Source: Puniceicoccaceae bacterium K14
Lineage (GTDB): Bacteria; Verrucomicrobiota; Verrucomicrobiia; Opitutales; Opitutaceae
Direction of reading: 5' to 3'
Assembly: GCA_022538095.1 (NCBI GenBank)
Contig: JAKYXN010000020.1
Coordinates: forward strand, 1 to 64,000
Length of the DNA: 64,000 nucleotides
The position numbers and the translations under genes were made by a program. Below are positions 44,922 through 62,746 of the stretch, in pieces. Positions within the stretch are counted from its first letter, which is position 1; each line of letters begins with the position of its first letter. The notes beneath the pieces were generated by a model that was not told the DNA's origin, searched no databases, and worked only from the letters and a program-made list of their open reading frames with translations.

Positions 44922-45125
44922 ATGAGAAATAACGCTACATTAAAGTCACTACTCAATCGTCAATTTGTAACTATGGACAATCACTTGTCTGTGCCATCAA
45001 TTGACTTCGAATTCCGCAGCGCCGCGAGAGCAGAGAACACCACTAATTCAAGAATTTCATTCAAGCGATTTGGATGCGCTATTCCTTCTGCGGAGGATTT
45101 TGCGCATGCCGTATCCCAAAACTAA
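44922..45125 (+). CDS. unrecognised small protein between rsmH and ftsL
   Basis: 67 residues. A good ribosome binding site, AGGAGAAGCAGGAAA, directly precedes the ATG, which supports translation. The product is polar, with no membrane segment; the central part is SFKRFGCAIPSAEDFAHAV. It overlaps the ftsL start by 20 bases, and its last codons contain the ftsL ribosome binding site, so translation may be coupled. No family was recognised. Confidence 0.6.
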   Translation: MRNNATLKSLLNRQFVTMDNHLSVPSIDFEFRSAARAENTTNSRISFKRFGCAIPSAEDFAHAVSQN

Positions 45126-45510: not shown

Positions 45511-45520
45511 TTGGAACTTA

Positions 45521-47311
45521 ATGGCTAAAGGATTTGCTCCAGGCTTTAGATTTTGGTTTTTATCCCTATTGATCTTAGTAGGGTATGGAGCAATTGGGTA
45601 CAGATTAGTCGATTTACACGCTCTTAAAAGAGAATCATTGGTCAAAGAACTGCACCGCCACCGATATCGAATTATACCGAGTAACCCGAGGCGCGGCGAT
45701 ATTTATGATTCGGGTATGGAGCTTCTTGCGACTAGCCACTCGTTCGTAAATGTTGGGTTGGATCCGACTCTAATAAAGGAGTCCGATATCATAAAACTCG
45801 CACCACTGTCCGAAATTTTGCAAATGCCTCTCTCAGATATAGAAGAGGCATTTGGCGTTAAAAATGGTAAGTTTGTCGTAGACCCAAAGACGCATACACG
45901 TCGTTGGATTCCACTTGCACGGCATAGCAGCGAGACTGCATACGAGAAAGTTAAAGCGCTAGGAATTCGCTGTGTGTATGGAAACAGAGAGTACTCACGT
46001 GTTTACCCAAAGGACGAATTAGCGGCACATGTCGTGGGCTTTTCACGTAAGGACGGCCAGGCTGTAATGGGGGTTGAGAAAACCTTCGATTTTTATTTGA
46101 GCGGACAAAAGGGATGGAAAGAATCGGAAGTGAAGGCGGGGATAGAAATGGCGCAGTTTCGCACTCGTCTAGTTCCTGCGGAAGATGGCATGAATATCGT
46201 ACTATCCATCGATTCTTACGTGCAGTATCTGGTGGAAAAAGAACTCGCGCTAATTGCAGAGGAACTAAAACCAAAGTCTGCGTCTATCATTATTTCTGAT
46301 CCACATACTGGCTTTATTATCGGTATGGGAAATTATCCTACATTTGATCCCAATAATTACGCGAGGTATCCGATAAACACTCATAAAAATCGTGCATTGA
46401 CGGATCCTTTGGAGCCTGGCTCTACTTTTAAAATAGTAGCCGCTGCGGGTGCCCTTGAGGAGCAACTTGTTCGTACATGGACAGAGTTCGATTGCTCGAA
46501 AAACACTGTCCAGCTAGCTAGCGGCTATGTGGCACGCTTGCCCAAGGATTCGCACGAGAATGGAATCTTGAGCGTAGAAGAAATTGTATCCGAGTCTTCA
46601 AATAGAGGAGCTGCCTTCTTGGGTGTGTTGATGGGTGAAAACAAATTTTATGACTACGTGAAAGGTTTCGGTTTTGGCGACCCGACTGGTTTTTCAATCG
46701 GCCAGGAATCTTGGGGTATTTTGAACCCTGTAAAACGTTGGGATGGGCTTACTCTAACTCGGATGACAATGGGGCACTCGATTAGTGCTACGCCAATTCA
46801 GATCCACTACGCTATGGCGTCCATCGCTAATGGCGGGTTGTTGATGCGTCCCCAAGTCGTGAAGAGTATCTTGGATGATAAAGGTGATACGGCAATAGAG
46901 TTTGGGCCTTTGCCGAAGCGACGAGTTGTTTCGGCAAATACTGCCAATACGGTTGCTCGAATGCTGGAGAAAACTGTTTCCGAGGGAACGGCGACGAGTG
47001 CCGAGATTGCCGGCTATAGCATTGCAGGAAAAACTGGAACTTCGCAGAAACTCATAAATGGTCGTTATTCTTCTAGGCATCACGTAGGTTCCTTTTCTGG
47101 TTTTTTGCCTGCCGATGATCCAAGGCTTGTAATCACGGTAATCGTTGATGATGCCGACATCAAAGGAATCTCTTATGGGTCTCGAGTGGCTGCTCCAACT
47201 TTTAAGGAATTAGCGAAAAGCTTGATACCGTATTACGCAATTCAACCTGCGATCAGAACCGAGGAAATCGCGTCATCCATGGAACTCGGTCCAGTTGACT
47301 GGGGTAACTAG
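45521..47311 (+). CDS. ftsI: septal peptidoglycan transpeptidase FtsI (PBP3)
   Basis: 596 residues. Class B penicillin-binding protein with an N-terminal transmembrane anchor (about 12-33), a dimerisation/PBP domain (RRGDIYDSGMELLA near 55), and a transpeptidase domain. The active-site motifs are complete: S301-TFK, S359-S-N361 and K504-TGT. It crosslinks septal peptidoglycan with FtsW. The ATG at 45521 was chosen since earlier in-frame starts (45440) overlap ftsL and spoil the N-terminus. The Lys-Gly-Phe start places the anchor normally. No PASTA domain. Confidence 0.96.
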   Translation: MAKGFAPGFRFWFLSLLILVGYGAIGYRLVDLHALKRESLVKELHRHRYRIIPSNPRRGDIYDSGMELLATSHSFVNVGLDPTLIKESDIIKLAPLSEILQMPLSDIEEAFGVKNGKFVVDPKTHTRRWIPLARHSSETAYEKVKALGIRCVYGNREYSRVYPKDELAAHVVGFSRKDGQAVMGVEKTFDFYLSGQKGWKESEVKAGIEMAQFRTRLVPAEDGMNIVLSIDSYVQYLVEKELALIAEELKPKSASIIISDPHTGFIIGMGNYPTFDPNNYARYPINTHKNRALTDPLEPGSTFKIVAAAGALEEQLVRTWTEFDCSKNTVQLASGYVARLPKDSHENGILSVEEIVSESSNRGAAFLGVLMGENKFYDYVKGFGFGDPTGFSIGQESWGILNPVKRWDGLTLTRMTMGHSISATPIQIHYAMASIANGGLLMRPQVVKSILDDKGDTAIEFGPLPKRRVVSANTANTVARMLEKTVSEGTATSAEIAGYSIAGKTGTSQKLINGRYSSRHHVGSFSGFLPADDPRLVITVIVDDADIKGISYGSRVAAPTFKELAKSLIPYYAIQPAIRTEEIASSMELGPVDWGN

Positions 47312-47333
47312 TTGGGAGGCGTGCAAAGTAGGT

Positions 47334-48914
47334 ATGAGTGCTTTAAAAGAAAACAAGGATAGCTCAGGAGAGGGAAAAAAGAAAAGTCGATCCAAGAAGG
47401 CTTCTAAAAAAGCGAAGCCACGGATGATGAGTTCTTTGGTGAAGTCTGCAGGCTTGAAGTTTCCTAAGAAAGAGTCTGACACCCTTGTTTCGCGACTAGC
47501 GATCGATAGTAGGCGGGTAATTCCAGGGTCCTTATTTTTTGCCATCGAAGGACTGAAGACTGATGGGAACAAATTCGTAGACGAAGCGATTTCCCGGGGA
47601 GCGGTTGGGATCGTTACGGCTCGGCCTCCGAAATTGCACGGAAGCAAGGTTGCCTATATTAAGTCTGAGGACCCGCGCTTATCCTTGGCTAGAGTGTCGC
47701 GAGCGTTTTTTGATTTTCCAGATGAGAAACTTTTACTGGTAGGTGTCACCGGAACAAACGGAAAGACAACAGTCACTGGATTGATAAAAGACTTGCTCCG
47801 AGTGAGTGGGGGCAAAGTAGGTTCGCTTGGGACGGTGGGCTATGATTTGGTGCAACGGTCACTCCCTTCATTTCGTACGACTCCAGAAGCGCATGATTTG
47901 TGCGAGTTGTTATCGCAGATGAATGATTTTGAGTGCGAAGGAGTTGTTATGGAAGTCAGCTCGCACGCAATCGATCAGCTTAGAGTTGCCGAATTGGCAT
48001 TCGATGTGGGCGTATTCTTGAATTTAACACGCGACCACCTCGATTACCATGGCGATATGGAACAGTATTTTGCTGTAAAGCGGCGCTTGTTTACGGGCGA
48101 AGTCGGGGCTAAGCCGAAGAGGGTGGTCGTCAACGCTGATGACTCGTATGGACGCCGACTAATTGAAGAATTTAAAGGAGAAGATCTAACTAGTTTTGGT
48201 TTCGCAGAAGATGCTGATGTACGCGGTTTGAATCTACAGCTGGAATCAGCATTCAGCGCTTTTGATGTGGTATGGCCCGAGGGTAAGGGGCGAGTGACTA
48301 CAAATCTTATTGGACGATACAACGTTAGCAATGTGCTGGCCGCATTGGCGACGGCTTACGTTTCCGGATTGGATGTTAATCGATGCATAGAGAGACTGAA
48401 AACATTTGAGGGAATTCCCGGTCGGATGCAGTTAATAGAGAATAGCATTAACCTAAAAATTGTGGTTGATTACGCTCATACTGCGGATGCGTTGACGAAC
48501 GCCCTGAGCTTATTGAATGAGATAACTCGTGGGAAGGTGATCGTTGTCTTTGGCTGTGGTGGAGATCGTGATCGAGGCAAGCGCTCTTTGATGGCGCAAG
48601 CAGCGCTAGCGAATAGTGATTTTAGTTGGGCGACCTCAGATAATCCGAGAACAGAGGCGATAGAGCAGATCTTCGATGATATGAAAGAGGGCGTTCAATC
48701 ATCGGACGCTGATCGAATAGAATTTATTGCTGATCGTCGTCGGGCCATTGAGCTAGCGTTGAAAAGCGCAAAGCCGGAAGATTGCATATTGATTGCAGGC
48801 AAGGGGCATGAAACGTTTCAAGAATTTGGAGACACAGTTGTCCCGTTCGATGATCGGCAGGTGGCGTATGAACTGTCGGAACTTATTAGGCTTGGAGGGG
48901 AACAGTCTCGTTAA
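47334..48914 (+). CDS. murE: UDP-MurNAc-tripeptide synthetase MurE
   Basis: About 526 residues, longer than usual because of a lysine-rich N-terminal tail of some 35 residues before the catalytic part. MurE adds the third residue of the stem peptide. The ATP loop GVTGTNGKTTVTGL is near 137. The signature D436-NPR within TSDNPRTEA indicates meso-diaminopimelate as substrate. Later starts exist (47424, MMSSLVKSAG), which would remove the tail. The stop overlaps the murF ATG as TAATG, pointing to coupled translation. Confidence 0.94.
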   Translation: MSALKENKDSSGEGKKKSRSKKASKKAKPRMMSSLVKSAGLKFPKKESDTLVSRLAIDSRRVIPGSLFFAIEGLKTDGNKFVDEAISRGAVGIVTARPPKLHGSKVAYIKSEDPRLSLARVSRAFFDFPDEKLLLVGVTGTNGKTTVTGLIKDLLRVSGGKVGSLGTVGYDLVQRSLPSFRTTPEAHDLCELLSQMNDFECEGVVMEVSSHAIDQLRVAELAFDVGVFLNLTRDHLDYHGDMEQYFAVKRRLFTGEVGAKPKRVVVNADDSYGRRLIEEFKGEDLTSFGFAEDADVRGLNLQLESAFSAFDVVWPEGKGRVTTNLIGRYNVSNVLAALATAYVSGLDVNRCIERLKTFEGIPGRMQLIENSINLKIVVDYAHTADALTNALSLLNEITRGKVIVVFGCGGDRDRGKRSLMAQAALANSDFSWATSDNPRTEAIEQIFDDMKEGVQSSDADRIEFIADRRRAIELALKSAKPEDCILIAGKGHETFQEFGDTVVPFDDRQVAYELSELIRLGGEQSR

Positions 48915-50275
48915 TGGCGTTTTCTGGAAAGGATCTCAAACTTTGGAGTAGGGGTTTATGGAACAGTGAACCAGCTGCGGCGCTAGAAGGATTTACTAAC
49001 GACACGCGCCAACTTAATAAGGGTGACGTTTTTGTAGCCCTGAAGACCAATCGGCGCGATGGTCATGATTTTTTGGATGCTGCTCAAGAAGCGGGAGCTT
49101 CTGCAGCATTGGTAAGTGAGTTTAGGCAAGGAGTTGACTTGCCGCAGTTGAAAGTCGAAAACGCGTTATTAGGCCTTCAAAGAATAGCAGCAAGTTATCG
49201 TGCAAAGTTCTCGGGGCCTGTTGTTGGAGTCACTGGCAGTTGTGGCAAGACGACTTGTAAGGATCTGATTGCCACACTTTTGGGAGGTGATGAGACGACG
49301 TTGAGTACGGCGGGCAATCTGAATAATTTTCTCGGAGTTCCATTGACATTGATGCGAGGTAATTGGGAAAAGGATCACTATGCTGTGGTCGAAGCCGGCA
49401 TAAGCGAAAAAAATGAAATGGGCGTGCTTGCTGAGATGATTCAGCCAAACATCGCGGTCATTACTTCGGTTGGTCCAGCGCATTTGGAAGGTTTGGGTAC
49501 GGTCGAGAATGTAGCTGCGGAGAAGCTGAAGCTTGGTTTGGGCGAGCGTACTCACTCGATCTTTATTGATTCCACTGCATCTCAGTTTGTACGAGAGATT
49601 GAAGGTAAGGAATTGTATTCAATTTGTGTTGATGATCGTCTCGGGAAAATCGGCTCGTATAAAATCGGTGAGGAAACGCTGTATCTCCGCTTGCCTGGGG
49701 GAGTAGAAGAATTTCCTTTGATTAACAGTAGTAATAGTTTGGCTTCTAACGTAGCGCTTTCTCTATCAGTAGCCGCATCTTTAGAGATTTCTACAGATAA
49801 ATTACGTGAACGACTTTCAAACTGGAGACCTAGTGGAATGCGTGGCGAATGGATCGAAGTCGATAATAAGTGTGTGTATTTAGACTGTTATAATGCGAAC
49901 CCGCTTTCGATGATCGATTCGTTGGAGAGTTTTGTGAAAAATTCGGACGATTCGGCAGCTAGGTTGTTTGTTATTGGCGGTATGGAGGAATTGGGTGAAG
50001 GGGCCTCATCTTGGCACGAACAATTGGGTGAAAATTTGTCGCTACGAGATCAAGATCGTCTTTGCATTGTGGGGCGATTTGCTGATGATGTGCTGCGTGG
50101 TTTTATCGGTAGCGGAGGTTCTGCTGCGATTGCCCAGGTTGTTCAATCGATGCAAGAGCTGAAACAGATCGTAAATCAATTTACCGGTAGCGTTTTCTTG
50201 AAAGGAAGTCGTCGTTATCAGTTGGAAAATGCGTTGGATGACGCACTTAAAAATTCCCGGAAGGACATTTCTTAA
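48914..50275 (+). CDS. murF: UDP-MurNAc-tripeptide-D-Ala-D-Ala ligase MurF
   Basis: 453 residues. MurF adds D-Ala-D-Ala to the tripeptide precursor using ATP. The N-terminal domain has GFTNDTRQLNKGDVFVALK. The ATP loop is VTGSCGKTTCKDLI, then AGNLNNFLGVPLTLM and EAGISEKNEMG, all MurF hallmarks. The C-terminal domain includes the DCYNANPLSMIDSL motif. It shares one base with murE and one with mraY at TAATG overlaps, so all three should be translated together. Confidence 0.96.
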   Translation: MAFSGKDLKLWSRGLWNSEPAAALEGFTNDTRQLNKGDVFVALKTNRRDGHDFLDAAQEAGASAALVSEFRQGVDLPQLKVENALLGLQRIAASYRAKFSGPVVGVTGSCGKTTCKDLIATLLGGDETTLSTAGNLNNFLGVPLTLMRGNWEKDHYAVVEAGISEKNEMGVLAEMIQPNIAVITSVGPAHLEGLGTVENVAAEKLKLGLGERTHSIFIDSTASQFVREIEGKELYSICVDDRLGKIGSYKIGEETLYLRLPGGVEEFPLINSSNSLASNVALSLSVAASLEISTDKLRERLSNWRPSGMRGEWIEVDNKCVYLDCYNANPLSMIDSLESFVKNSDDSAARLFVIGGMEELGEGASSWHEQLGENLSLRDQDRLCIVGRFADDVLRGFIGSGGSAAIAQVVQSMQELKQIVNQFTGSVFLKGSRRYQLENALDDALKNSRKDIS

Positions 50276-51375
50276 TGTTAAGCTATTTAGCAGAATATGA
50301 ATACATATTTGGTCCCTTGCGCTTGTTGCGCTCGGTTACCCTGCGTACTGTAATGGGCGGCGGCACTGCATTGTTGATAGGGTACCTGTTGGGACCGTGG
50401 ATGATCGCCAAATTGCGAGCGCTATCTTTCGAGCAAAGTTTTCGTAGTAAAGAAGAAGTAGGCAAGCTGGCGGATCTACATTCAGGGAAGAAAAACACCC
50501 CGACTATGGGGGGCTTGCTTATTTGCTTGAGTATCGTGGGAGCGACTTTGCTTTGGGCCAAGCTTAACATTTGGGTCACCGTTTCAATGTTCGTGTATCT
50601 GAGTTTGACTGTTCTTGGATTTTGGGACGATTACAGCAAAGTATCTAAACGAAATAGTAAGGGCGTTAGTTCTCGATTTAAGCTGATATGGCAAAGTGTG
50701 ACAACTGTCATTACCATCTTGGTACTCGTTAACAGTCCTGCGAGTTCTCAATTCGTAGGAGAGCTGTGGGTACCTTTTTTCAAAAACGTTGTTATTGAGC
50801 AGATGCCGATTTGGTTGCTTTTCGGCTTTTTGTTTCTTGTTCTAGTTGGGTCTAGCAACGCTATTAATTTGACTGATGGAGTTGACGGTCTTGCGATTGG
50901 TTGCTCAATTTCGGTGGCAATGGTCTATGCCATTATGGCGTATGCAACGGGACATAAGGTAATCGCGGATTACTTGCTCATCTCGTATATCCCTGGAGTC
51001 GAAGAATTGACTATCATTTGCGCAGCAATGGTCGGTGCGGGCTTGGCGTTTTTGTGGTTCAATTCCCACCCAGCATCAGTCTTTATGGGGGATACTGGTT
51101 CGCTCGCTTTGGGTGGCTTGATTGGAATTATCGCATTCATGACGCATCAACCACTGACCTTGATTATTGTGGGTGGAATTTTTGTGATGGAAGCGATGTC
51201 GGTAATCATTCAAGTTGGCTCTTTCAAGAGTCGAGGTAAACGGGTATTTCGCATGGCGCCCATTCACCATCACTTTGAGTTAAAAGGCTGGGCGGAATCC
51301 AAGGTTGTGGTTCGTTTTTGGATTTTGTCTTTCATTTTTGCTATGGCAGGATTGGCTACATTGAAGCTTAGATGA
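50275..51375 (+). CDS. mraY: phospho-MurNAc-pentapeptide transferase MraY
   Basis: 366 residues with ten predicted transmembrane helices. MraY makes lipid I at the inner membrane. Conserved cytoplasmic motifs are HSGKKNTPTMGGLLI, FWDDYSK, NAINLTDGVDGLA and APIHHHFELKGWAE, including the catalytic Asp pairs and HHH. The length is normal. It overlaps murF by one base and murD by four (ATGA). Confidence 0.97.
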   Translation: MLSYLAEYEYIFGPLRLLRSVTLRTVMGGGTALLIGYLLGPWMIAKLRALSFEQSFRSKEEVGKLADLHSGKKNTPTMGGLLICLSIVGATLLWAKLNIWVTVSMFVYLSLTVLGFWDDYSKVSKRNSKGVSSRFKLIWQSVTTVITILVLVNSPASSQFVGELWVPFFKNVVIEQMPIWLLFGFLFLVLVGSSNAINLTDGVDGLAIGCSISVAMVYAIMAYATGHKVIADYLLISYIPGVEELTIICAAMVGAGLAFLWFNSHPASVFMGDTGSLALGGLIGIIAFMTHQPLTLIIVGGIFVMEAMSVIIQVGSFKSRGKRVFRMAPIHHHFELKGWAESKVVVRFWILSFIFAMAGLATLKLR

Positions 51376-52661
51376 CGAATCCCGAAATACAGATTCCAGA
51401 ACAATTGAGTGCCGTGCCGGGAAAGCCAGTCGCGGTGCTTGGCTGTGGTATTTCGGGCAAATCTGTGGAACGATTATGCAGTCAACTCGGTTGGGAAGCG
51501 ACGCTCTTTGATGAAAAGTCTGACGATCCAAGCGTCGTAAATTCGTTTGATAGCGATCGTGCGGAAGAATTCAGCTTAGTTGTTTACAGTCCCGGGTTTC
51601 ACAAAGACCACACCTGGCTTCAGTGTGCGGAAAAAGCGGGAGCTCTGACCTTATCTGAGTTTGATTTTTCGTCGCTGTTTTGGAAGGGGACAATAATCGC
51701 GATTACGGGAACGAACGGGAAAACGACCTTAGCAGAGTTTTTAGCTAAGGCCTTTGGCCACACGGGGATCGATGCTAATGCCGTGGGAAATATTGGACAA
51801 CCGTTGAGTGAACTGATTGCGAATGGGTGCAATCGCGAGTCGATCGCGGTATGCGAGATCAGCTCATTCCAAGCGGAGTCTTTGAAGCACTTAGTGCCTG
51901 ATTATGTGCTGTGGACGAATTTTTCTGAAGATCACTTGGATCGGCACGCTGACTTGCGAGAATATTTCTCGGCAAAGCATCGTTTGGTAACGCGTTGTTC
52001 TTCGGGGAAGGTATTTTTTGATCGTTCGGTTTATCGCTCCGCGATTGAGCTCGGTACGAGTCTCTCTGAAGAGTGTGTGGTCGACGATGATACGCAGGCA
52101 AAAGCTTTGGGAATAGGAGGCACGGTGTTTGCGACTTTGCCTGAGCGAAATACCTACTTGATGGCTCGGGCGTTGTGGCAGGACATGGGCTTGGCCGAAA
52201 CTGATTTAATCGCTACAGCTCACGATTTTAAGAAAAGCCCTCATCGAATGGAATTGATTAGAAACCATGAGGGGGTTTCCTTTTGGGACGATTCTAAGGC
52301 GACGAATTTTCATGCTGTTCTGGGAGCCGTGTCTCGATTTGAAGACAAAGTTGTTTGGATCGGTGGCGGCAAAGGCAAGGGAGGGGATTTGGAAGGTTTT
52401 ATCGATTGCCTTTACAGTCGCATTCGTGAAGCTCATTTGATTGGAGAAACGAAAGAAGAAATCGCTGAATTGCTGCAAAAACGCAACGTTTCCGCTGTTT
52501 TGCATGAAACGATGGAGGATGCGGTTAGCGCAGCCTTTAAAAAATCGAAACAGGGTGATAATGTGCTTTTAAGTCCTGGCTTTGCCAGCTTTGATATGTT
52601 CGAAGGTTATACGCAACGCGGGGAAGCATTTAAAAAGGCAGTTAGTTTGAATTTAATTTAG
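51372..52661 (+). CDS. murD: UDP-MurNAc-L-alanine:D-glutamate ligase MurD
   Basis: 429 residues. MurD adds D-Glu to UDP-MurNAc-L-Ala. The N-terminal Rossmann motif VLGCGISGKSVERL precedes the ATP loop AITGTNGKTTLAEFL. The domain 3 motif is FWDDSKATNFHAV, and the C-terminal block LLSPGFASFDMFEGY is typical. The four-base overlap with mraY suggests coupling. A 24-base gap with an AAAGGAG site leads to the LysM gene. Confidence 0.96.
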   Translation: MTNPEIQIPEQLSAVPGKPVAVLGCGISGKSVERLCSQLGWEATLFDEKSDDPSVVNSFDSDRAEEFSLVVYSPGFHKDHTWLQCAEKAGALTLSEFDFSSLFWKGTIIAITGTNGKTTLAEFLAKAFGHTGIDANAVGNIGQPLSELIANGCNRESIAVCEISSFQAESLKHLVPDYVLWTNFSEDHLDRHADLREYFSAKHRLVTRCSSGKVFFDRSVYRSAIELGTSLSEECVVDDDTQAKALGIGGTVFATLPERNTYLMARALWQDMGLAETDLIATAHDFKKSPHRMELIRNHEGVSFWDDSKATNFHAVLGAVSRFEDKVVWIGGGKGKGGDLEGFIDCLYSRIREAHLIGETKEEIAELLQKRNVSAVLHETMEDAVSAAFKKSKQGDNVLLSPGFASFDMFEGYTQRGEAFKKAVSLNLI

Positions 52662-52685
52662 TCGGTAGGTTATAAAGGAGTATAT

Positions 52686-53846
52686 ATGAATTTCATTAAG
52701 ATAGTCGCTGTCGTGGTCGCAGCTCATTTGATATTGCTAGCAGGTTTTTTCCTACGCAGCGTGGTAGGCGGTGACGAGCAAACACAGGTGGCAACTGCAG
52801 GGGCAAATGGCATCGGGATTTGGTCCAATCAAGATGCAAATGCTGGAGATCCTGTAGTGGCAGCGTCAACACCGGTTTTCGACTCTCGTTCAAACAATTT
52901 GACTGGATACAATGCAGGCGACCCAGTTACACCCGTGGCACAAGCAGGGGAGCGCCCTCGGTATTCTCCGACACGTCCACAAGGCGGCAGCCCGCGATCA
53001 ACTCCGACTTCAAACTCAAGCTCACAAGCGATTGACGATTCCGTCTTGCAACCGATCGGCAGAGGCTACGAAGAGACTCGTGAATCGCCAACGCTGCCTC
53101 CACCTCCATCAATTAAATATTCCGTACAGGCGGGGGATAGCCTTTGGGCGATTGCACAGCGATTCAAAACCACGACTGCTGCTATTTCTGCATCCAACCC
53201 GGGGTTGAAGGCGAGTGCATTGCCAGTCGGCAAGGTTCTCACGATTTTGAAACCAGGTGGAAGCGTTGTCTCAAACACAGCTACAAAGAAATCGGTAACG
53301 CAGGTAGATACCTCTGTTTACGTGGTGAAAAAGGGAGATTCCCTTTCGAAGATCGCAGCGCGGCAAAATGTGACTTTGGCTGAACTTAAGAGAGCTAACA
53401 GTTTGAAGTCTGATATGATCGGTATCGGTCAAAAGCTTGTAATTCCGAATACAAGTAAGACGTCTCGCCTCGCTGAGCAACAACCACGCGGTATTAGCGT
53501 TGTGATTGAACCAGGCGATACTTTGGGCAAGATAGCAGCTCGTTACAAAGTGAGTGTGAGCGAACTGATTTCCTACAACAAGATAGTGAATCCGCGTCGT
53601 ATACCGATCGGCAAAGTTATCATGATTCCAACGAGCGAGGAACCGCGTGAAGTCGCTCCACGTCAGACGCAGCAATACACTCCACCTCCTCAGACAAGAG
53701 CGTCGGAGCCAGAAACGCCGCCATCGGCACAAGTTCCGGAGCCTACTCCGACAACGCCAACGGAGACCACTGACTTGTTCGATGATTTTGGAGACGACTT
53801 TGATGAAGATTTAATCGAGCAGCCTGTAGTGCCAATCGAAGAGTAA
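52686..53846 (+). CDS. membrane-anchored triple LysM protein
   Basis: 386 residues. An N-terminal hydrophobic segment (IVAVVVAAHLILLAGFFL) anchors the protein. A long Pro/Ser-rich linker reaches to about 140. Three LysM domains follow at about 145-189, 212-256 and 272-317, each opening with GD(S/T)L. The tail is Pro/Thr-rich and then strongly acidic (LFDDFGDDFDEDLIEQ). LysM domains bind peptidoglycan glycan strands. No catalytic domain is present. Its place between murD and ftsW suggests a role at the septum or wall, which is inference. A GGAG site precedes the ATG. Confidence 0.9.
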   Translation: MNFIKIVAVVVAAHLILLAGFFLRSVVGGDEQTQVATAGANGIGIWSNQDANAGDPVVAASTPVFDSRSNNLTGYNAGDPVTPVAQAGERPRYSPTRPQGGSPRSTPTSNSSSQAIDDSVLQPIGRGYEETRESPTLPPPPSIKYSVQAGDSLWAIAQRFKTTTAAISASNPGLKASALPVGKVLTILKPGGSVVSNTATKKSVTQVDTSVYVVKKGDSLSKIAARQNVTLAELKRANSLKSDMIGIGQKLVIPNTSKTSRLAEQQPRGISVVIEPGDTLGKIAARYKVSVSELISYNKIVNPRRIPIGKVIMIPTSEEPREVAPRQTQQYTPPPQTRASEPETPPSAQVPEPTPTTPTETTDLFDDFGDDFDEDLIEQPVVPIEE

Positions 53847-53870
53847 TTTAGAAATTTGCCGACCTAAGAA

Positions 53871-55028
53871 ATGCCTAGCGCGACGAAACGAGCAAATCTA
53901 GCCACGCCGGGGAAAGCGTCTCCGGCAATCTTCATTCTCCTTAGCGTATTTGCATTAGTGATGCTCGGCATCACGATTCTTTTCAGTGCCAGTCTGCCCG
54001 TTGATAGCCAGTCGCCGTATGTGTACATTGAAAAACAAGCGATCTGGATTGTGATAACGTTTTTTGTGGGCTTGGGGGTTTTACGAGTCGACTTGGAATG
54101 GTTGCGTAAATTCATTTGGCTTGGTTTTGCCCTCTCCATCGTGGGCTTGATCCTTGTGTTAACACCATTGGGGTCGGTTGTGAATGGAAGTCGCAGCTGG
54201 ATACGCTTTGGACCGGCTGGCTTTCAAGTTGCGGAGTTTGCTAAGATAGGATTGGTTTTCTTTTTGGCTCACTATTTTAGTTTGTGCCAGAATGAGCGCG
54301 GGCAATTTTTCAAAGGATTTGTTTACCCTTGTCTGGCGATTGCCGCGATCCTTGTGCCGATTTTGATGCAGACGGATTTAGGTACGGCTATGATTATTGC
54401 CATGGCGAGCCTGTGCATCCTCTATATTGCAGGAGTTAAATTGTATTTTCTAATACCATCGATAGTGGTAGGAGTCGGAGGCGTTGTGGCATTGATTATC
54501 AATGACAAAGAACGCTGGAGTAGATTGACGGCCTTTCTTGATATGGAAGGGCAAAAAAGCGGTGATGCCTATCAGGTGTGGCAAGCGATGTTGGCGTTTG
54601 GCGCTGGAGGCATAGATGGTGTTGGCCTAGGCAATGGCCGCCAGCAACTTCAGTTTTTGCCAGAAGCCCACAATGATTTTATTTTCGCAATCGTGGGTGA
54701 AGAGTTGGGATTGATCGCAACTTTAGCGGTGGTTCTAGTGTACGCGGTCATGTTTATCGCTGGGATTGTGCATCTACGGAAGGCCCCGAATATCTACCAA
54801 TATTTGTTGGCTGGCGGCTGCCTTTTGATGATTAGTGTGCAGGCGGTTGTAAACCTTGGGGTGGTGACTGGGTGTTTGCCAACAACAGGGCTGCCTTTGC
54901 CGTTTATCAGCTACGGCGGTTCCAACCTGCTCATCATGGGTATTTGCGTGGCGGTGTTATTGAATACGTGTTCGGCTTGGCAAAAGCCAGCTTTCAAGCA
55001 ATCGAAACGCAAGCTTAAGGAAATTTAA
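53871..55028 (+). CDS. ftsW: septal peptidoglycan glycosyltransferase FtsW
   Basis: 385 residues with about ten transmembrane helices. SEDS-family polymerase that works with FtsI. Conserved blocks are GSRSWIRFGPAGFQVAEFAK, QTDLGTAMI, the NDFIFAIVGEELG box with the essential acidic residues, and the C-terminal GLPLPFISYGGSNL. It could be RodA by sequence alone, but the position in the dcw cluster supports FtsW. The ATG is 24 bases after the LysM stop. Confidence 0.95.
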   Translation: MPSATKRANLATPGKASPAIFILLSVFALVMLGITILFSASLPVDSQSPYVYIEKQAIWIVITFFVGLGVLRVDLEWLRKFIWLGFALSIVGLILVLTPLGSVVNGSRSWIRFGPAGFQVAEFAKIGLVFFLAHYFSLCQNERGQFFKGFVYPCLAIAAILVPILMQTDLGTAMIIAMASLCILYIAGVKLYFLIPSIVVGVGGVVALIINDKERWSRLTAFLDMEGQKSGDAYQVWQAMLAFGAGGIDGVGLGNGRQQLQFLPEAHNDFIFAIVGEELGLIATLAVVLVYAVMFIAGIVHLRKAPNIYQYLLAGGCLLMISVQAVVNLGVVTGCLPTTGLPLPFISYGGSNLLIMGICVAVLLNTCSAWQKPAFKQSKRKLKEI

Positions 55029-55032
55029 GCGG

Positions 55033-56118
55033 ATGAAGAAAGCGTTCATAGCATGTGGTGGCACTGGGGGTCACTTGTCCCCTGGTATTGCGGTCGCGGA
55101 GGCTCTGGCAGACGTGGGCTATTCGTCACTTTTGTTGATTAGTAACAAGCAAGTGGATTCGCGCTTGGTGCAAAAGTATTCGAATCTTGAATTCTTGAGT
55201 ATCCCTGGAAGTGGGCTTTCGCTTTCGCCAATCAGGCTCGTTAGGTTTGTTCTCAATCTAGTATCGGGGACATGGCTTTGTTATCGTCGAATACACCGGG
55301 AAAAGCCATCTTTTGTAATTGGTTTTGGTGGGTTCATTTCGATGCCCGCATTGTTGGCGGGAAAACTAGCTCGTCTGCCGACCGCTATTCACGAAGCGAA
55401 CGGAGTTCCAGGGAGAGTTACTCGGATTGTTAGCAAATTCGTCGATCGCGTATATTTGCCAGACGCTGTTACGTTGGCGAATCGACCTTCTGAAGTCGTT
55501 AAAAACATTGGAATGCCAGTGAGGAAAGAAATTCAGCGCCAGGATGCAGCGAAAGCTCGCGAAACGCTGGGTTTGGATCCTAATTTGAGAACACTCTTGG
55601 TTTTTGGCGGGAGCCAAGGAGCCCAGTCGTTGAATACGTGGGTGTCTGAGCAGTTTGACGAATTGGCGTCTTTGGGCGTGCAAGTTTTTTGCTTAACTGG
55701 TCCAAGCCAAGATTTGTTAGAAGATAAAGCGATAGGCCTTCAAAATGGATCGATTGCGAAGGCGCTTTTCCGCCCCTTTAGTGATGATATGGCAGCGGTG
55801 TTGTCAGCTTCGAGCTTGGTGATTTCTCGGGCAGGCGCAGGAAGTATATCGGAGATTATTCGCTGCCAAGTGCCCGCGATCTTGATTCCGTACCCATTTG
55901 CAGCCGACAATCACCAGCAGGCGAATGCGGCCAGCTTCCAAGCGAAAGGCTGTGGGCTTGTGTTGGACCAAGCGGATCTTGGGAATCTAATCGGAACCGT
56001 TAGGGAGATTTTGTTGGATGAAAATCGCTATGAATCGTTTCTTAGTTCGCTTAAAGCGATGGAGAAGCAAATGCCTCAAATAGAAATCGCAAAGGACTTG
56101 GAGCAACTGACGATATGA
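55033..56118 (+). CDS. murG: lipid II synthase MurG
   Basis: 361 residues. The peripheral glycosyltransferase adds GlcNAc to lipid I. The N-terminal GGTGGHLSPGIAVAEAL carries the UDP-GlcNAc loop. FGGSQGAQSLN, ISRAGAGSISEI and the C-terminal PYPFAADNHQQANA are family blocks. It starts four bases after the ftsW stop and overlaps murC by four bases (ATGA). A complete family match. Confidence 0.97.
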   Translation: MKKAFIACGGTGGHLSPGIAVAEALADVGYSSLLLISNKQVDSRLVQKYSNLEFLSIPGSGLSLSPIRLVRFVLNLVSGTWLCYRRIHREKPSFVIGFGGFISMPALLAGKLARLPTAIHEANGVPGRVTRIVSKFVDRVYLPDAVTLANRPSEVVKNIGMPVRKEIQRQDAAKARETLGLDPNLRTLLVFGGSQGAQSLNTWVSEQFDELASLGVQVFCLTGPSQDLLEDKAIGLQNGSIAKALFRPFSDDMAAVLSASSLVISRAGAGSISEIIRCQVPAILIPYPFAADNHQQANAASFQAKGCGLVLDQADLGNLIGTVREILLDENRYESFLSSLKAMEKQMPQIEIAKDLEQLTI

Positions 56119-58418
56119 AGCTTTCATCGAATAACCGTATTCATTGTTTGGGAGCGGCGGGGGCTGGGATGCTACCACTTGCGCTAATGGCGAAGCAATC
56201 TGGTTTCGCTGTAACGGCTCAGGATGATTCAATGACGGAAAAAGCCAAACGCATGCTAGAGCAATCAGGCGTGGAAATCGTGGTTGGCGAAGATTGGATT
56301 AGTAGTGGAAAGGGAACGGTGATTCGCTCTTCTGCGATTCCTGTAGATGGAGGACTCGTCCAATCTGCTCTTGCGGAGGGGTGGCGTGTTTGTCGTCGTG
56401 GGGAATTTTTTGCAGAGATGAGCGGAAATACGAAGCTCGTTGCTATTGTGGGATCTCATGGGAAGACGACGACGACCGCGATGCTGCATGAGTGGCTAGG
56501 TTGCATGAATGTTGAGCACTCGCTGATGTTAGGCGGATTGTTTGAAGACGATCAATTGCCTGGGCAGTTGGGAGGTTCCGATTGGTTGATTGCAGAGGTT
56601 GATGAAAGCGATGGAACGATTGAAGGCTTTTCACCAGAAATTGCGGTTATTCTAAATGTAGATTATGACCACCACACACAGTATCCAACGGAGAAGGATT
56701 ACCGGTCTGCCTTTCAAAGATTGGCATCGAGGACGAGTGGTAAAGTCGTGGCGAGTGTCGAAGTTTGCGAAATGCTCGATCTGAAAAACACGATTGAGCA
56801 AGAGCGTTTGGTTGTTGTTGGAGCTGGAGGAGATGTTTCCTTCGATTTCAAAGAATCTTTCAAAGGTGGAGGCAGATTGGACATTAAATTTGCCGGCAGT
56901 ACTGCGTCGGTGACGATTAACAGATCAAGTGATTTCAATGTTTCAAATGCAGTTTTTGCGGCGATTGCTGCTACGGAAATTGGAGGCAGGGAACACTTGC
57001 CACAGTCAGTGTTTTTTCCGGCGCTTGAGCGCCGACAGTCGTGTAACTTCCTATCGCCTACACTATCTGTTTTCAATGATTATGCTCATCATCCAGAGGA
57101 GATCACTCGACAAATCGCGTCGCTCAAAAAACAAAGAAATGGCGAATTGTGGGTTGTTTTTCAACCCCATCGATTTAGCCGGACACGTCATCTCGTTCAC
57201 GAGTTAGCGAAGAGTTTGGCAGCTGCGAATCGATTGTATTTGCTGGATGTCTACGCAGCGAGCGAGCAAGAGGTCGAGGGTGGCCGAGGGGTCGATTTAC
57301 ATGTGATTTGCCAAGAACAATGTTCCGATTGTCGCTTCTTGGATTCGGAAGACGCCTTACTTGACCTGCTAGAGAATGAAGTTGATCCGAGCCAAGAGCT
57401 CAGTGTTCTTTTCTTGGGAGCAGGAATGACGCATTTATATGCAAAAAAATTCGCTAGCCGGGTGGCGGTTCGGGATGCTCGATGGGGTGCTTTCTCGAAG
57501 GTTTTGGGAGAAGGTGCTCGGGAATCATCCCAGCTGAAGTCGAATGAGCCGTTGGCAAAGAAAACGACTATGCGAGTTGGCGGTAGCGCGGAAAGGTATC
57601 TAGAGCCAGCATCTGAGGTAGAGTTGAGTGTCGCCTTAGCTGCTGCCAAAAAATTTGGAATCAGTGTTCAAATGCTTGGTAGAGGTTCGAATCTGATTGT
57701 GCCAGACACAGGAGTAAGAGGGCTTGTCATCCGTTTGAATCATCCTTTTTGGAAGCAGTACCGAATGTTGGACGACGAACGTGTTTGGATTGGAGCTGGT
57801 ATGCGGATAAAGGAATTGTGCGGCGTAGCGGCCAAACTAGGCTTGGCTGGCTTTGAATTTTTAGAAGGTATCCCCGGGAACTTGGGCGGAGCGCTACGTA
57901 TGAACGCTGGTGCAATGGGTGGGTGGACTTTCGACGTGGTTGAATCCGTACGTTTTATTGGAATGGACGGAAAGGTGTATGAAAGAAAGCGTGCGCAATT
58001 GACTTATGGGTACCGGCATTGCAGGGAATTGGAGGACACGGTTGCCATTGGGGCGGTTTTGCGAGCGAATGCTTCGGGAAGGGATCGTGAGGAGATTCGG
58101 GCATCGATTGGGACGTATCAGGAAAAACGCCACGAGAGTCAGCCCAGAGAGCCCAGTGCGGGCTGTATTTTTAAAAATCCGGAGGGTGACTCTGCGGGTC
58201 GGATTATAGATGAGCTCGGTTTGAAGGGTACGGCGATTGGTGGAGCGAAAATAAGCGAAATCCATGGCAATTTTATTGTGAATACAGGTGGGGCGACCAG
58301 CGAAGATGTAATAGAATTGGTAAAACTGGCCCGTAGAGTGGCTCAGGAGAAAAAGCATATTGAATTGGAGCCGGAAGCTCTTTTGTATGGCGCTGAATGG
58401 AAGGAATTTCTGAGATGA
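56115..58418 (+). CDS. murC-murB: MurC-MurB fusion: UDP-MurNAc-L-alanine ligase and UDP-MurNAc dehydrogenase
   Basis: 767 residues in one frame. Residues 1-455 are MurC: IHCLGAAGAGMLPLAL, ATP loop GSHGKTTTT, then NDYAHHPEEITRQI and QPHRFSRTRHL. From about 470 comes MurB: TTMRVGGSAERYLEP, GRGSNLIVPDTGV, EGIPGNLGGALRMNAGAMGG, SAGCIFKNPEG and IELEPEALLYG. The two enzymes catalyse successive precursor steps (MurB then MurC). In MurB the usual catalytic serine in the SAGSxFKxP motif is Cys684 here. Both domains are full length. Overlap of four bases with murG and ddl. Confidence 0.95.
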   Translation: MKLSSNNRIHCLGAAGAGMLPLALMAKQSGFAVTAQDDSMTEKAKRMLEQSGVEIVVGEDWISSGKGTVIRSSAIPVDGGLVQSALAEGWRVCRRGEFFAEMSGNTKLVAIVGSHGKTTTTAMLHEWLGCMNVEHSLMLGGLFEDDQLPGQLGGSDWLIAEVDESDGTIEGFSPEIAVILNVDYDHHTQYPTEKDYRSAFQRLASRTSGKVVASVEVCEMLDLKNTIEQERLVVVGAGGDVSFDFKESFKGGGRLDIKFAGSTASVTINRSSDFNVSNAVFAAIAATEIGGREHLPQSVFFPALERRQSCNFLSPTLSVFNDYAHHPEEITRQIASLKKQRNGELWVVFQPHRFSRTRHLVHELAKSLAAANRLYLLDVYAASEQEVEGGRGVDLHVICQEQCSDCRFLDSEDALLDLLENEVDPSQELSVLFLGAGMTHLYAKKFASRVAVRDARWGAFSKVLGEGARESSQLKSNEPLAKKTTMRVGGSAERYLEPASEVELSVALAAAKKFGISVQMLGRGSNLIVPDTGVRGLVIRLNHPFWKQYRMLDDERVWIGAGMRIKELCGVAAKLGLAGFEFLEGIPGNLGGALRMNAGAMGGWTFDVVESVRFIGMDGKVYERKRAQLTYGYRHCRELEDTVAIGAVLRANASGRDREEIRASIGTYQEKRHESQPREPSAGCIFKNPEGDSAGRIIDELGLKGTAIGGAKISEIHGNFIVNTGGATSEDVIELVKLARRVAQEKKHIELEPEALLYGAEWKEFLR

Positions 58419-59347
58419 AGAGTGAGCCCCGATTAGCGATTTTATATGGCGGGGTTTCGGCCGAAAGAGAGGTTTCTTTGGGGTCGGGAAAAGCTGCAGC
58501 CGAATCATTCTCGAAGTTTTGCGAAGTGGACTTGATCGACGTTACTGACGCGGCTCTTCCAGCTGCTTTAGACCCAGCCAAGCATATCGTATTTTCTACT
58601 CTTCACGGGACCTTTGGAGAGGATGGCCAAATTCAAAAATTGATGGAGGAAGCAGGAATCGTATATGCGGGTTGCGATTCCAAGAGCAGTGCTTTAACTT
58701 TTGATAAAGTGGATACCAAGGAAGCACTGCGAGAGCGGGGGATTTCAGTTTGCCCAGAATTTGCTTTCGAAGCGGAGGACAGCGTCGATTTGGATACTTT
58801 GATTTCGGTGGTTGGAGAGGATGTTGTGATAAAGCCACGTCGGCAGGGTTCTAGCATCGGTTTGGCTTTTGCGAAAACCAGGGAAGAGATTGAAAGCGCT
58901 TTTTCAGGAATCAAAGAAGGGCCATGGGTTGTGGAGCCGCGAATTAACGGGCGAGAATGCACGATTGGAGTAGTGAATGGAGAAGTCTACGAGATCGTTG
59001 AGATAAAGCCGCACTCTGGTACTTTCGATTATCAGTCCAAATACACAAAAGGGGGGACGGAATATATTGCCCCAGCCGTCATGGAAATTGTGTTGGTTAA
59101 TGAAGTAAAGAAGCTCGCACTCGATACTTATCGAGCGTGTGGGTGCCGGGATTTTGCCCGGGTCGATTTTATGATAAATGAGCAGGGACAACCCTTTGTA
59201 TTGGAAGTTAACTCACTTCCTGGGCTCAAAGAGACGAGTCTTTTGCCAATGTCTGCCGGTGCGGCTGGACATAACTTCGATAATTTGCTAAGGCTCCTCA
59301 TTGAACCAGCAAAGCAACGTTTTGCCTCTAAGTATTCATTCTGCTGA
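58415..59347 (+). CDS. ddl: D-alanine--D-alanine ligase
   Basis: 310 residues. ATP-grasp ligase that makes the D-Ala-D-Ala used by MurF. The opening AILYGGVSAEREVSLGSG, STLHGTFGEDGQIQ, VVIKPRRQGSSIGLAF, CRDFARVDFMINEQG and FVLEVNSLPGLKETSLLP are conserved. The ATG at 58415 overlaps murC-murB by four bases. An ATG six codons upstream is less likely. The ligand loop has the normal Ddl (not lactate) features as far as can be seen. Confidence 0.96.
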   Translation: MKSEPRLAILYGGVSAEREVSLGSGKAAAESFSKFCEVDLIDVTDAALPAALDPAKHIVFSTLHGTFGEDGQIQKLMEEAGIVYAGCDSKSSALTFDKVDTKEALRERGISVCPEFAFEAEDSVDLDTLISVVGEDVVIKPRRQGSSIGLAFAKTREEIESAFSGIKEGPWVVEPRINGRECTIGVVNGEVYEIVEIKPHSGTFDYQSKYTKGGTEYIAPAVMEIVLVNEVKKLALDTYRACGCRDFARVDFMINEQGQPFVLEVNSLPGLKETSLLPMSAGAAGHNFDNLLRLLIEPAKQRFASKYSFC

Positions 59348-59348
59348 T

Positions 59349-60248
59349 ATGTCTAGAACCCCAGCCAAAAATGCCAAAAAACGACCCAGGTCTTGGAAAG
59401 ACATCGATCAAGGAGTAAAACCTAAGACGATGAGCAAGGCCTCGAAGCAACGTGCCATTATGGGACGTTTGCGCTGGATGTTGGGCTTCGCTGTGGTGGT
59501 TGTAGCAATAGGAGTCTTTTTAAAGGTGGTCGTGTTTTCACCGGTCGGCCCTCGCATGTTGGCCCAGGCAGGTGATGCGTTGCCGGTAGAATCCATCGAA
59601 ATCAATACAGACGGGGTATTGAGCCGTGATTATGTTTTGAACATGATGGAGCTGCACGAGGGCGAAACTGATCTGTTGAGTTTGGATATTGATGTTTTAA
59701 AAGATCGCCTCGTTGCGATACCACAGGTGCGGTCAGCGGAGGTAGAGCGTCGTTTTCCAGATAGCTTGGTCATCGAAATCGAGGAACGTGAGCCTGTAGT
59801 GCGAATTACGGCACGTCGAAGTACGGGCGAGACTTTGATGCTATTAGTCGATGGGGATGGACAAGTTTTCGAAGGAGAGGATTTTGATACTAAGTTTTTG
59901 CGTTCGCTACCCGCTTTGGGGGGCGTGAGCCTAAAACGAGAAGGACGTGGTTATACTGCTGTTGAAGGAATGAGAGCGGTCAATGAGCTCTTGATGGAAG
60001 CAAAGGCAATCGCTCCACACATTTACCGTACTTGGAGGGTGGTTTCTTTGGAGGACGCTCCGAATATCATTGTCCGGAGTAAGACGGCGAAGGAAGTTAT
60101 TTTCGAACCGGGTAATTATCGCCGTAGTTTGGCTCAACTCGATTACGTGTTGGACTATTATCGAGGTCAGCTCGTTACGAATATAGCTACGATCGATTTG
60201 ACTTTGGGGAAACAAGTCCCGGTACGTGCGAAGCCGTTGGCCCAGTAG
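59349..60248 (+). CDS. ftsQ: cell division protein FtsQ
   Basis: 299 residues from the chosen ATG, one base after the ddl stop. A basic N-terminus, one transmembrane helix (about 41-60) and a periplasmic POTRA domain (about 80-150, VESIEINTDGVLSRDYVLNM) define FtsQ. The beta domain follows to the end. It links FtsB/FtsL to the divisome. The longer frame from 59301 overlaps ddl and adds residues not typical of the family. Confidence 0.9.
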   Translation: MSRTPAKNAKKRPRSWKDIDQGVKPKTMSKASKQRAIMGRLRWMLGFAVVVVAIGVFLKVVVFSPVGPRMLAQAGDALPVESIEINTDGVLSRDYVLNMMELHEGETDLLSLDIDVLKDRLVAIPQVRSAEVERRFPDSLVIEIEEREPVVRITARRSTGETLMLLVDGDGQVFEGEDFDTKFLRSLPALGGVSLKREGRGYTAVEGMRAVNELLMEAKAIAPHIYRTWRVVSLEDAPNIIVRSKTAKEVIFEPGNYRRSLAQLDYVLDYYRGQLVTNIATIDLTLGKQVPVRAKPLAQ

Positions 60249-60290: not shown

Positions 60291-61505
60291 GTGCAGAAAA
60301 CGAAGATAATCGCTGGCATTGAGATCGGTACCGGAAAGGTCTCCGTCCTTTTGGGCGAAATCATCGAAGGCAAGAGTTTAAATATCATTGGTATGGGCCA
60401 ATGCTCTTCTAAGGGGGTCGTTAAGGGTGATATCGTTGACTTTCACGAAGCGAACGATTGTACGCATGCTGCTATTTTAGCGGCAGAAAACCAAGCGGGC
60501 GTGAAAATCGATGGCGTGTATTTAGCAATGAGCGGTACTCATATCGAAGGTTTTGCTAGCGAGGCTTCAGTGAATGTGACCGGAGCTGATGGAATGGTGA
60601 CTCGTGGCGATTTGTTGCAGGTTTGCGATGTCGCGCAGAGTCGGGAGTTACCGGAGAATCGGACTGTGATTCATCACTTACGCCGTCCGTATCGACTCGA
60701 TGGGAGATGTTTGAATACGCCTGTTGGAATGGAGGGCGAGAAACTCGAAGTTAGCTATTGGACCTCGCACGGAGATGCTCGTAAAATCAGCGATGCGATC
60801 CATATCATAAATGGCTTTAATCTGCATGTTGATGACATTATTTTGTCTGCATTGGCGTCGAGTTCTACAGTAACGACTCCTGAAGAGCGTAAGAGTGGGG
60901 TTTTGGTGATCGATCTCGGTCGTGGCACTACGGATTACGCTTTGTACAACGAAGGGCGTTGCATGATTGCCGGAGCCTTACCAATTGGGGGCGACCACAT
61001 CTCTAATGATTTGAGCATCGGCTTGCGAGTTCGTCTCAAACAAGCGGAAAGTTTGAAGCTCCGCTTTGGATCTGCAGTGAACGAAAGCAAAGACAAGTCG
61101 GAGAAAGTTTGGCTAAACAATGACTTGGAAATTGGCGATCGTCCGGTTCCGCTTTGGAGTATCGAGAAAATCGTCGAGCTACGAGCTACTGAGACTTTCG
61201 AAGTCGTCAAAAAACGTTTGGGAAAACTGTATTCCAACGACAAATTGGGCGCGGGCATTGTGCTTTGCGGAGGCGGGTCGAATTTGCCGAATGTCGACCG
61301 TTGCGCTGCCAAGGTATTTGGTACCCAAGCTCGGATCGGGGACAATCGATCTATGGCATCAGGCGAATTAAGAGATGGGCAGTTTAGCACGCCTCTAGGT
61401 TTGCTTCACTACGGTTTGCGTTATCAAGGAAGTCGCGATGTTGTGAACAACGAACAGGGTAGCGGTTTGTTTGGGAAATTAAAAGGATTGTTCCAGAAGG
61501 GATAA
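60291..61505 (+). CDS. ftsA: cell division protein FtsA
   Basis: 404 residues from a GTG start. An actin-like ATPase that tethers FtsZ to the membrane. The phosphate 1 motif GIEIGTGKVSVLLGE, the SHS2 domain (about 80-160), VIDLGRGTTDYALY (phosphate 2) and IVLCGGGSNLPNV (adenosine) are all present. The C-terminus, LFGKLKGLFQKG, is the amphipathic membrane-targeting helix. It stands just before ftsZ, 5 bases apart. Confidence 0.95.
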   Translation: MQKTKIIAGIEIGTGKVSVLLGEIIEGKSLNIIGMGQCSSKGVVKGDIVDFHEANDCTHAAILAAENQAGVKIDGVYLAMSGTHIEGFASEASVNVTGADGMVTRGDLLQVCDVAQSRELPENRTVIHHLRRPYRLDGRCLNTPVGMEGEKLEVSYWTSHGDARKISDAIHIINGFNLHVDDIILSALASSSTVTTPEERKSGVLVIDLGRGTTDYALYNEGRCMIAGALPIGGDHISNDLSIGLRVRLKQAESLKLRFGSAVNESKDKSEKVWLNNDLEIGDRPVPLWSIEKIVELRATETFEVVKKRLGKLYSNDKLGAGIVLCGGGSNLPNVDRCAAKVFGTQARIGDNRSMASGELRDGQFSTPLGLLHYGLRYQGSRDVVNNEQGSGLFGKLKGLFQKG

Positions 61506-61510
61506 GCGCT

Positions 61511-62746
61511 GTGGAAGAACAACCTAAAGAAATCGAATCGATCCGTATCAAAGTTATTGGCATCGGCGGAGCGGGGACGAATATGGCAGACCGTTTGATG
61601 TTTGATTGCCCCAAAGAAGTATCTTTGACGGTAATGAACACCGATCAGCAAGCTCTTTCTGGGTCGCCGATATCTGATAAGTTTTGTGTGGGAAAATCAG
61701 TTACTTATGGCCTCGGAACTGGCGGAGATCTTGAAGTCGGACGCGAAGCCGCCCGAGTCGATAAAGCACGACTCGAAACGATGGTTGAAGGGGTTGATTT
61801 GCTCTTTTTGACCGTTGGTTTAGGGGGTGGAACCGGGACAAGTATCGCTCCGATATTGGCTGATATGGCCAATAAAAATGGGACAGTGGTAATTGCTTTT
61901 GCGGCGATGCCATTTACGATTGAAAGGGCTGAAAGAGCGAGTGTCGCCAAACATGGTTTGGAAGCGTTACGTGATAAGTGTAACGCGGTGATACCTCTCC
62001 CCAACGATCTGCTCATACAAGAGACTGACCCTGATGCGTCGATTTTGGATGCATTTGCCAAAGCGGATGCTTGGATTGAACGAGCAATTAAATCGATTTG
62101 GTCTATGATGCATCGTCCTGGGTTAATCAATTTGGATTTTTCTCAGCTCAAACTCACGTTTTCGAGGAAGGCGGGTAAGACTCTCTTTGGCTTGGGCGCA
62201 GGTGAAGGAGAGGATTCGGCAAAACTTGCAGTCGAGGACTTGAAACTTTGCCCACTATTGCACACCCCCGAATTTTCTAAAAAGGCGGACCATCTGCTCG
62301 TGAATATTGTTGGGGGCGCTCATTTGAGCATTTCCCAAGTTCAGCACATAATGGATAGCGTGACCGATGAATTCGGTAAGGATTCCAATGTGGTAATGGG
62401 AGCGGTCATTGATGAGCAAATGGGAGATAAGGTTGAGATTTGCGTGGTTGGGACCAGCGATGTTTCGGGTGTCTCATTGATGCGTGGAAGTCAGTACAAA
62501 CGAGCGGTATCTGCGGTTACCAGTGAATCTCATGAACGGACATTAAAGGTAACAGCGACATCTCAGAAACGTAACTCGCGTGGTTCGAAATCAAGAAAGA
62601 AACCAAATTCCACCGAGCAACATGAGTTCTCTTTTAGTGACGAAGACCCAAAAGGAGAGTTTGAAAACGTATCTTCTACCGTAATTGACGGTCAGGACCT
62701 AGACACACCCACTTATTTGAGAAAAGGTGTAAAGATCGTTCTTTAG
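61511..62746 (+). CDS. ftsZ: cell division GTPase FtsZ, with atypical catalytic loop
   Basis: 411 residues from a GTG start. The tubulin-like Z-ring GTPase. The N-terminal G-box IGGAGTNMADRLM and the tubulin signature GLGGGTGTS (103-111) are present, but the signature ends in Ser instead of the usual Gly. The T7 synergy loop reads N207-L-D209-F-S-Q212. The second acidic residue (Asp212 in E. coli numbering) is Gln. The T3 region is GLGTGGDLEVGREAA. The linker (330-395) is Ser/Lys-rich, and the C-terminal tail DTPTYLRKGVKIVL resembles the FtsA-binding peptide. The last gene of the dcw cluster. Confidence 0.95.
   Translation: MEEQPKEIESIRIKVIGIGGAGTNMADRLMFDCPKEVSLTVMNTDQQALSGSPISDKFCVGKSVTYGLGTGGDLEVGREAARVDKARLETMVEGVDLLFLTVGLGGGTGTSIAPILADMANKNGTVVIAFAAMPFTIERAERASVAKHGLEALRDKCNAVIPLPNDLLIQETDPDASILDAFAKADAWIERAIKSIWSMMHRPGLINLDFSQLKLTFSRKAGKTLFGLGAGEGEDSAKLAVEDLKLCPLLHTPEFSKKADHLLVNIVGGAHLSISQVQHIMDSVTDEFGKDSNVVMGAVIDEQMGDKVEICVVGTSDVSGVSLMRGSQYKRAVSAVTSESHERTLKVTATSQKRNSRGSKSRKKPNSTEQHEFSFSDEDPKGEFENVSSTVIDGQDLDTPTYLRKGVKIVL

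Follow-up and report, generated by a model that had tools for sequence, protein, structure and literature searches.

The ftsZ gene examined here lies in a stretch of 64,000 nucleotides (the window) from Puniceicoccaceae bacterium K14 (family Opitutaceae, order Opitutales, class Verrucomicrobiia, phylum Verrucomicrobiota). It raises the question of whether an FtsZ lacking one of the two aspartates of the T7 loop can be the working division protein of its cell and, if so, how it would hydrolyze GTP. The amount of GTP hydrolysis that FtsZ-based division requires is a matter of debate, addressed chiefly through mutants in model organisms. The initial annotation of this DNA held that the second T7 aspartate is missing, that the signature motif is altered, that the T3 loop reads GTGGD, and that the gene is likely the main ftsZ. 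It proposed that GTP turnover may be slow or altered, or that another residue may compensate.

The encoded protein matched PF00091 at 122.8 bits (cut-off, 33) and PF12327 at 58.4 bits (cut-off, 27). It missed the TIGR00065 equivalog cut-off (269.1 versus 295.2 bits), a threshold that governs naming and does not mark a biological feature. Only 24 of the 288 phylum genomes searched were above this cut-off, with 256 below it and 8 having no match. Thus, the FtsZ of the phylum is generally divergent. This divergence was noted earlier for Verrucomicrobium spinosum (PMC1845146) and is also seen in a family-wide phylogeny (PMC9871819). In our alignment, the E. coli numbering was in register at all three motifs of the window FtsZ (Table 1). 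The protein has the GTP-pocket residues N24, D45, E138, R142, F182, and D186 (E. coli itself has N186); D45, E138, and R142 are each conserved in 43 of 43 family rows. An AlphaFold model built from a six-sequence input had a mean pLDDT of 60.7, with blocks within residues 11 to 130 mostly at 78 to 95 and values below 50 at residues 203 to 208; its quality at T7 was poor. By its position and its likeness to E. coli DIPAFLRKQAD, the C-terminal peptide is predicted to be the FtsA-binding tail.

Table 1. Positions of ftsZ, its motifs, and the neighboring division genes in the window
Feature	Position	Strand	Remark
ftsZ	61511..62746	+	411 aa; GTG start; ORF without internal stop; Pfam domains
T3 loop, GTGGD (residues 69-73)	61715..61729	+	near-ordinary within the family
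T4 signature, GGGTGTS (residues 105-111)	61823..61843	+	S111 in no other row of the 43 family rows
R142	61934..61936	+	counterpart of S. aureus R143, arginine-finger-like (role, PMC8936486); R in 43/43 family rows
T7 loop, N207-L-D209-F-S-Q212	62129..62146	+	D209 retained; second aspartate replaced by Gln
Q212 codon	62144..62146	+	CAG
C-terminal peptide, DLDTPTYLRKGVKIVL	62696..62743	+	similar across the relatives compared
ftsA	60291..61505	+	PF14450, PF02491
Remaining dcw cluster	43844..60248	+	mraW, ftsI, murE, murF, mraY, murD, LysM protein, ftsW, murG, murC-murB fusion, ddl, ftsQ; individual Mur ligases named by their order in the cluster
LysM-repeat protein	52686..53846	+	between murD and ftsW
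murC-murB fusion	56115..58418	+	

The gene closes the dcw cluster, directly downstream of ftsQ-ftsA. Searching the genome with a protein query and with PF00091 at E <= 1 brought up no further FtsZ- or tubulin-like gene. Because the assembly (358 contigs) has a completeness of 97.36%, the absence of a second ftsZ is likely but unproven. As the sole copy found, placed after ftsA in the dcw cluster, the gene fits its annotation as the main ftsZ. In V. spinosum, of the same phylum, ftsZ is reported to be essential (PMC12283558). This demonstrates that an FtsZ of the phylum functions in cells, though it says nothing about the rate of hydrolysis. The window gene very probably encodes a division FtsZ that works in the cell.

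Two other features of the cluster stand apart from ftsZ. In Chlamydia, the place of its LysM-repeat gene is occupied by an nlpD gene. The murC-murB gene fusion is reported in V. spinosum too (PMC12283558).

To place the three motifs, we aligned 193 rows: 43 from the family, 92 from the rest of the order, 1 second FtsZ of genome G348 of the order, 19 from other orders of the class, 36 from the rest of the phylum, and 2 outsiders. The sources were 28 genomes that had a match out of 29 searched (the window's own included), 4 loci recorded as Opitutaceae/Opitutales, the order, and a first sample of the class and phylum. Thirty-nine of the family rows carry the family code, and L031 to L034 were assigned by label and likeness. 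We excluded a fragment (L035) and used a Bacteroidales sequence (L036) as an outsider. The order was sampled through the 103 genomes with an FtsZ match among 131 searched, again with the window's own included.

The T3 and signature motifs of the window FtsZ had been read correctly. However, they are not special, as the family varies similarly at both. The family signatures were GGGTGSG in 27 rows, GGGTGTG in 8, GGGTGGG in 4, GGGTGSA in 2, GGGTSSG in 1, and GGGTGTS in the window FtsZ only; among all 193 rows, position 111 was other than Gly in 29 and was Ser in 2. At T3, GAGGD and SAGGD predominate in the family (GAGGD in 21 of 43 rows, GTGGD in 2), and D73 was present in 40 of 43. The window FtsZ deviates at 4 of the 113 family-conserved core columns (A70T, G111S, T203P, and R220K). 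The T3 loop and the signature are therefore near-ordinary, and G111S is a minor change.

The T7 loop is different. It reads exactly as annotated and where annotated, and so the canonical two-aspartate pattern is broken: D209 is present, and position 212 is Gln. D209 was found in 43 of 43 family rows, while none of the 43 had an acid at 212 (T in 23, Q in 9, A in 9, G in 1, and S in 1). Within the family, Q212 was confined to the window FtsZ and its eight nearest relatives, which share 64 to 71% core identity. Because these eight come from other assemblies, Q212 is very unlikely to be a sequencing error. Among the 135 rows of the order, 120 had an acid at 209 only, 7 had both acids, 6 had neither, and 2 had an acid at 212 only. 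Thus, the loss of D212 is real but not peculiar to this gene, being shared by almost the entire order. The initial annotation, correct on the missing aspartate and on this being the only FtsZ found, was incomplete in this respect.

Some relatives within the order are unusual in other ways. Fifteen small genomes (0.8 to 1.0 Mb, 83 to 95% complete: G024, G317, G321, G325, G329, G330, G338, G339, G341, G352, G353, G361, G362, G370, and G372) had no PF00091 match at E <= 1. The search behind this set covered 20 genomes, of which 19 had no match and one had a 14-bit match below the cut-off; eight further genomes with no match in the FtsZ search of the order lie outside the set. All 15 small genomes had FtsW/RodA matches, and 13 had PF14450, in a 404-aa protein in G339 and in frames of 313 to 369 aa in the others; as a guess, these shorter frames may encode MreB or PilM and not FtsA. 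It is possible that FtsZ has been lost from these genomes or is extremely divergent in them. Alongside them, family f84 has an FtsZ that is odd at T7. Genome G348 (family f13) has two FtsZ types (L160 and L185), one of the order type with VDFATL and one of 662 residues of the sister-order type with VGLDDL, through either contamination or gene transfer.

Elsewhere in the class, the T7 loop mostly shows the reverse of the state in the Opitutales. In our first sample, 19 of 19 rows had no acid at 209 (G in 16, T in 2, and A in 1), all 19 had an acid at 212 (D in 16 and E in 3), and 15 had D211. The first sample of the phylum favored high-scoring FtsZ, so that its frequency of two-acid loops (22 of 36) is overstated. 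As a check on this bias, we searched 32 further genomes of the class, 2 of which had no locus, and 30 lower-scoring genomes of the phylum; in total, 49 of 51 same-class genomes and 66 of about 193 genomes outside the class were aligned. The 30 added class rows had an acid at 212 only in 26 cases, at 209 only in 3 (all of family f17 and badly aligned at T7), and at neither position in 1. Thus, 45 of 49 rows from these orders (19 of 19 and 26 of 30) have the 212 acid only. The added phylum rows had an acid at 209 only in 19 cases, at 212 only in 5, at both in 3, and at neither in 3 (two of these being gaps). With 19 of these 30 rows having only the 209 acid, loss of D212 recurs in the phylum and is not unique to the order.

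Altogether, 251 rows (249 from the phylum, E. coli, and one Bacteroidales) had an acid at 209 only in 149 cases, at 212 only in 60, at both in 34, and at neither in 8. Exactly one T7 acid is therefore present in 209 of 251 rows. Independent loss would predict about 42.5 rows with neither acid (68 x 157/251), as against the 8 observed; the difference is no more than suggestive, because the count includes related rows. Those 8 rows mean either that one acid is perhaps not strictly required or that these proteins are inactive. Three rows of family f8 (L143, L146, and L147) have neither acid (N209 and T212), with no second FtsZ above the PF00091 cut-off in their genomes. The outsiders aligned were E. 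coli and one Bacteroidales; for the conservation of D212 beyond the phylum, we therefore rely on published work (PMC8936486) and an alignment with M. tuberculosis.

We then mapped these losses on a tree of the 251 rows from which the T7 columns had been removed and L279 and L280, with gaps at T7, had been dropped. The 135 rows of the order formed one side of a branch, and a single loss of the 212 acid mapped there; the SH-aLRT support of this branch was 24 in the first tree and 99 after 58 rows were added. Both trees were quick searches under a simple model, and with long branches, as in this data set, such support may mislead. Over the whole tree, site 212 had 12 losses and 7 gains; one gain, with a support of 99, was placed in a single family of the order, in four rows. 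Site 209 had 19 losses and no gains, and its principal loss fell on a branch (support, 99) that unites 44 class rows with the second FtsZ of G348.

The two sites also differ in rate. Within the order, column 212 took 32 parsimony steps against a median of 29, slower than 42% of core columns, while column 209 took 9 steps and was slower than 90%; column 142 was slower than 89%. Thus, in the order, 212 changes about like an average column, and 209 does not. For the remaining phylum, this comparison covered the 36 rows of the first sample, in which 209 took 6 steps (slower than 86%) and 212 took 8 (slower than 81%); many of the lower-scoring rows added later also have no 212 acid.

How could such a protein hydrolyze GTP? 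In filament structures of S. aureus FtsZ, D210 (E. coli 209) is described as swinging to position the attacking water, while D213 (E. coli 212) stays put, linked through a water molecule to R143 (E. coli 142), which has an arginine-finger-like role (PMC8936486). Because D209 and R142 are retained in 43 of 43 family rows and 212 is Gln, we infer that hydrolysis runs through D209 and R142. We consider it probable that the window gene encodes a genuine working FtsZ of this kind and that D212 became dispensable in the ancestor of the order. Under this model, the second T7 aspartate would have given way mostly to small or polar residues and, in the subclade of the window FtsZ, to Gln. GTP would still be hydrolyzed at the subunit interface: D209 from the neighboring subunit would position the attacking water, and the positive charge would come from R142 of the subunit that carries the nucleotide; Q212 may be a hydrogen-bond partner that holds the water. 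The likely outcome would be turnover slower than that of E. coli FtsZ or an interface retuned elsewhere. Most members of the sister orders arrived at the mirror state, losing the 209 acid and retaining D/E212, often with D211.

Published mutants of E. coli and S. aureus count against a working FtsZ without D212. E. coli D212A is reported to keep 7% of its GTPase activity (PMC8142252), and D212G to have almost tenfold lower GTPase activity and to be static on membranes, with an activity of <1% also cited (PMC7320174). S. aureus D213N and D210N did not assemble, and their E. coli counterparts are described as lacking activity in vivo (PMC8936486). A possible though less probable account is that the FtsZ of the order is a very weak GTPase whose slow or near-static filaments serve as a scaffold, in the manner of E. 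coli D212G on membranes. The residual activity of D212A, the static rings of D212G, and the near-median rate of change at 212 favor this account, and a natural weak-GTPase FtsZ has been published for Ca. Thiosymbion oneisti (PMC8953583). However, 209 and 142 still change slowly in the order, which would be unexpected if hydrolysis were irrelevant. This is not decisive, because both residues also serve assembly in S. aureus (PMC8936486).

Alternatively, a compensating residue at the interface might stand in for D212 and keep turnover normal. We consider this unlikely. In independent-pair contrasts over 95 columns, an acid at 233 was the most opposed to a 212 acid (3.0 of 5 contrasts opposite and 0.3 the same); the window FtsZ has E233, and the sister orders frequently have D211 next to their retained acid. 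However, 5 supported contrasts cannot reach significance, and this was the best of the 95 columns picked by eye. Moreover, E233 is no new acid, since E. coli carries it alongside D212, position 47 of the window FtsZ is Gln as in E. coli, and its T7 loop has no new acid. Thus, no compensating acid for 212 was demonstrated among these columns, where 5 contrasts put the 0.05 level out of reach. We also compared the acid content of core columns between groups. A contrast of 209 with 212 on the first tree gave the same 5 independent contrasts, again too few for significance.

A separate candidate was a basic residue at position 47, which might act as a built-in cation replacing the K+ contacted by S. 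aureus Q48. Lys or Arg was found there in 10 of 43 family rows, 38 of 92 rows from the rest of the order, and 14 of 20 sister-type rows (including the second FtsZ of G348). K/R47 occurs, however, with both T7 states, and the window FtsZ has Gln; this explanation stays at the level of an idea.

That the gene is decayed or nonfunctional, reflects a sequencing error, or has a second copy elsewhere is very improbable: S111 is indeed private to the window FtsZ within the family, but the ORF is intact within an intact dcw cluster, few conserved columns deviate, Q212 is common to the eight nearest relatives, and no other FtsZ was found in the genome.

What makes this locus of interest is not so much the single gene as the loss of T7 aspartates, which is order-wide and takes mirror-image forms. 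More tentatively, the FtsZ of the phylum could be a one-aspartate GTPase in which either T7 acid suffices and different lineages have kept different ones, so that the paired catalytic aspartates, regarded as essential in model FtsZ, would be no universal requirement for division by FtsZ. Since the mutant state is natural in whole groups, at opposite positions, a comparison of natural enzymes can tell apart what each aspartate does, whether it places the water or holds what surrounds it. If turnover proves slow, normal division would be possible without fast treadmilling; if it proves normal, the accepted two-aspartate site would not be the only workable one. We take V. spinosum to belong to the 209-less group in the other orders of the class. 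Its D209 change may be among eight unusual positions marked in an alignment figure (PMC1845146). In the literature searched, which did not extend to subscription papers, we identified no earlier report of missing T7 aspartates in the phylum.

Compared with known systems, the window FtsZ is like the canonical proteins of E. coli, S. aureus, and M. tuberculosis in its two domains, its GTP-pocket residues, its N207, D209, and R142, its similar C-terminal peptide, and its place in the dcw cluster. Unlike them, it has no acid at 212 and falls below the TIGR00065 cut-off, as does most of the phylum. It is an orthologous FtsZ, yet it is outside the canonical two-aspartate type. It is like the laboratory proteins E. 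coli D212G and D212A in that the second T7 aspartate is gone and the first is present. However, its state is natural and order-wide, with Thr, Ser, Ala, Gln, and others at 212. Like it, the FtsZ of its sister orders usually has one T7 acid remaining, although in 45 of 49 rows it is the mirror image, with 209 mostly Gly and D/E212 kept. The tubulin counterpart of D212 is the catalytic Glu254 in alpha and the noncatalytic Lys254 in beta. There, the two states are divided between the subunits of a heterodimer, whereas here, one protein forms the filament.
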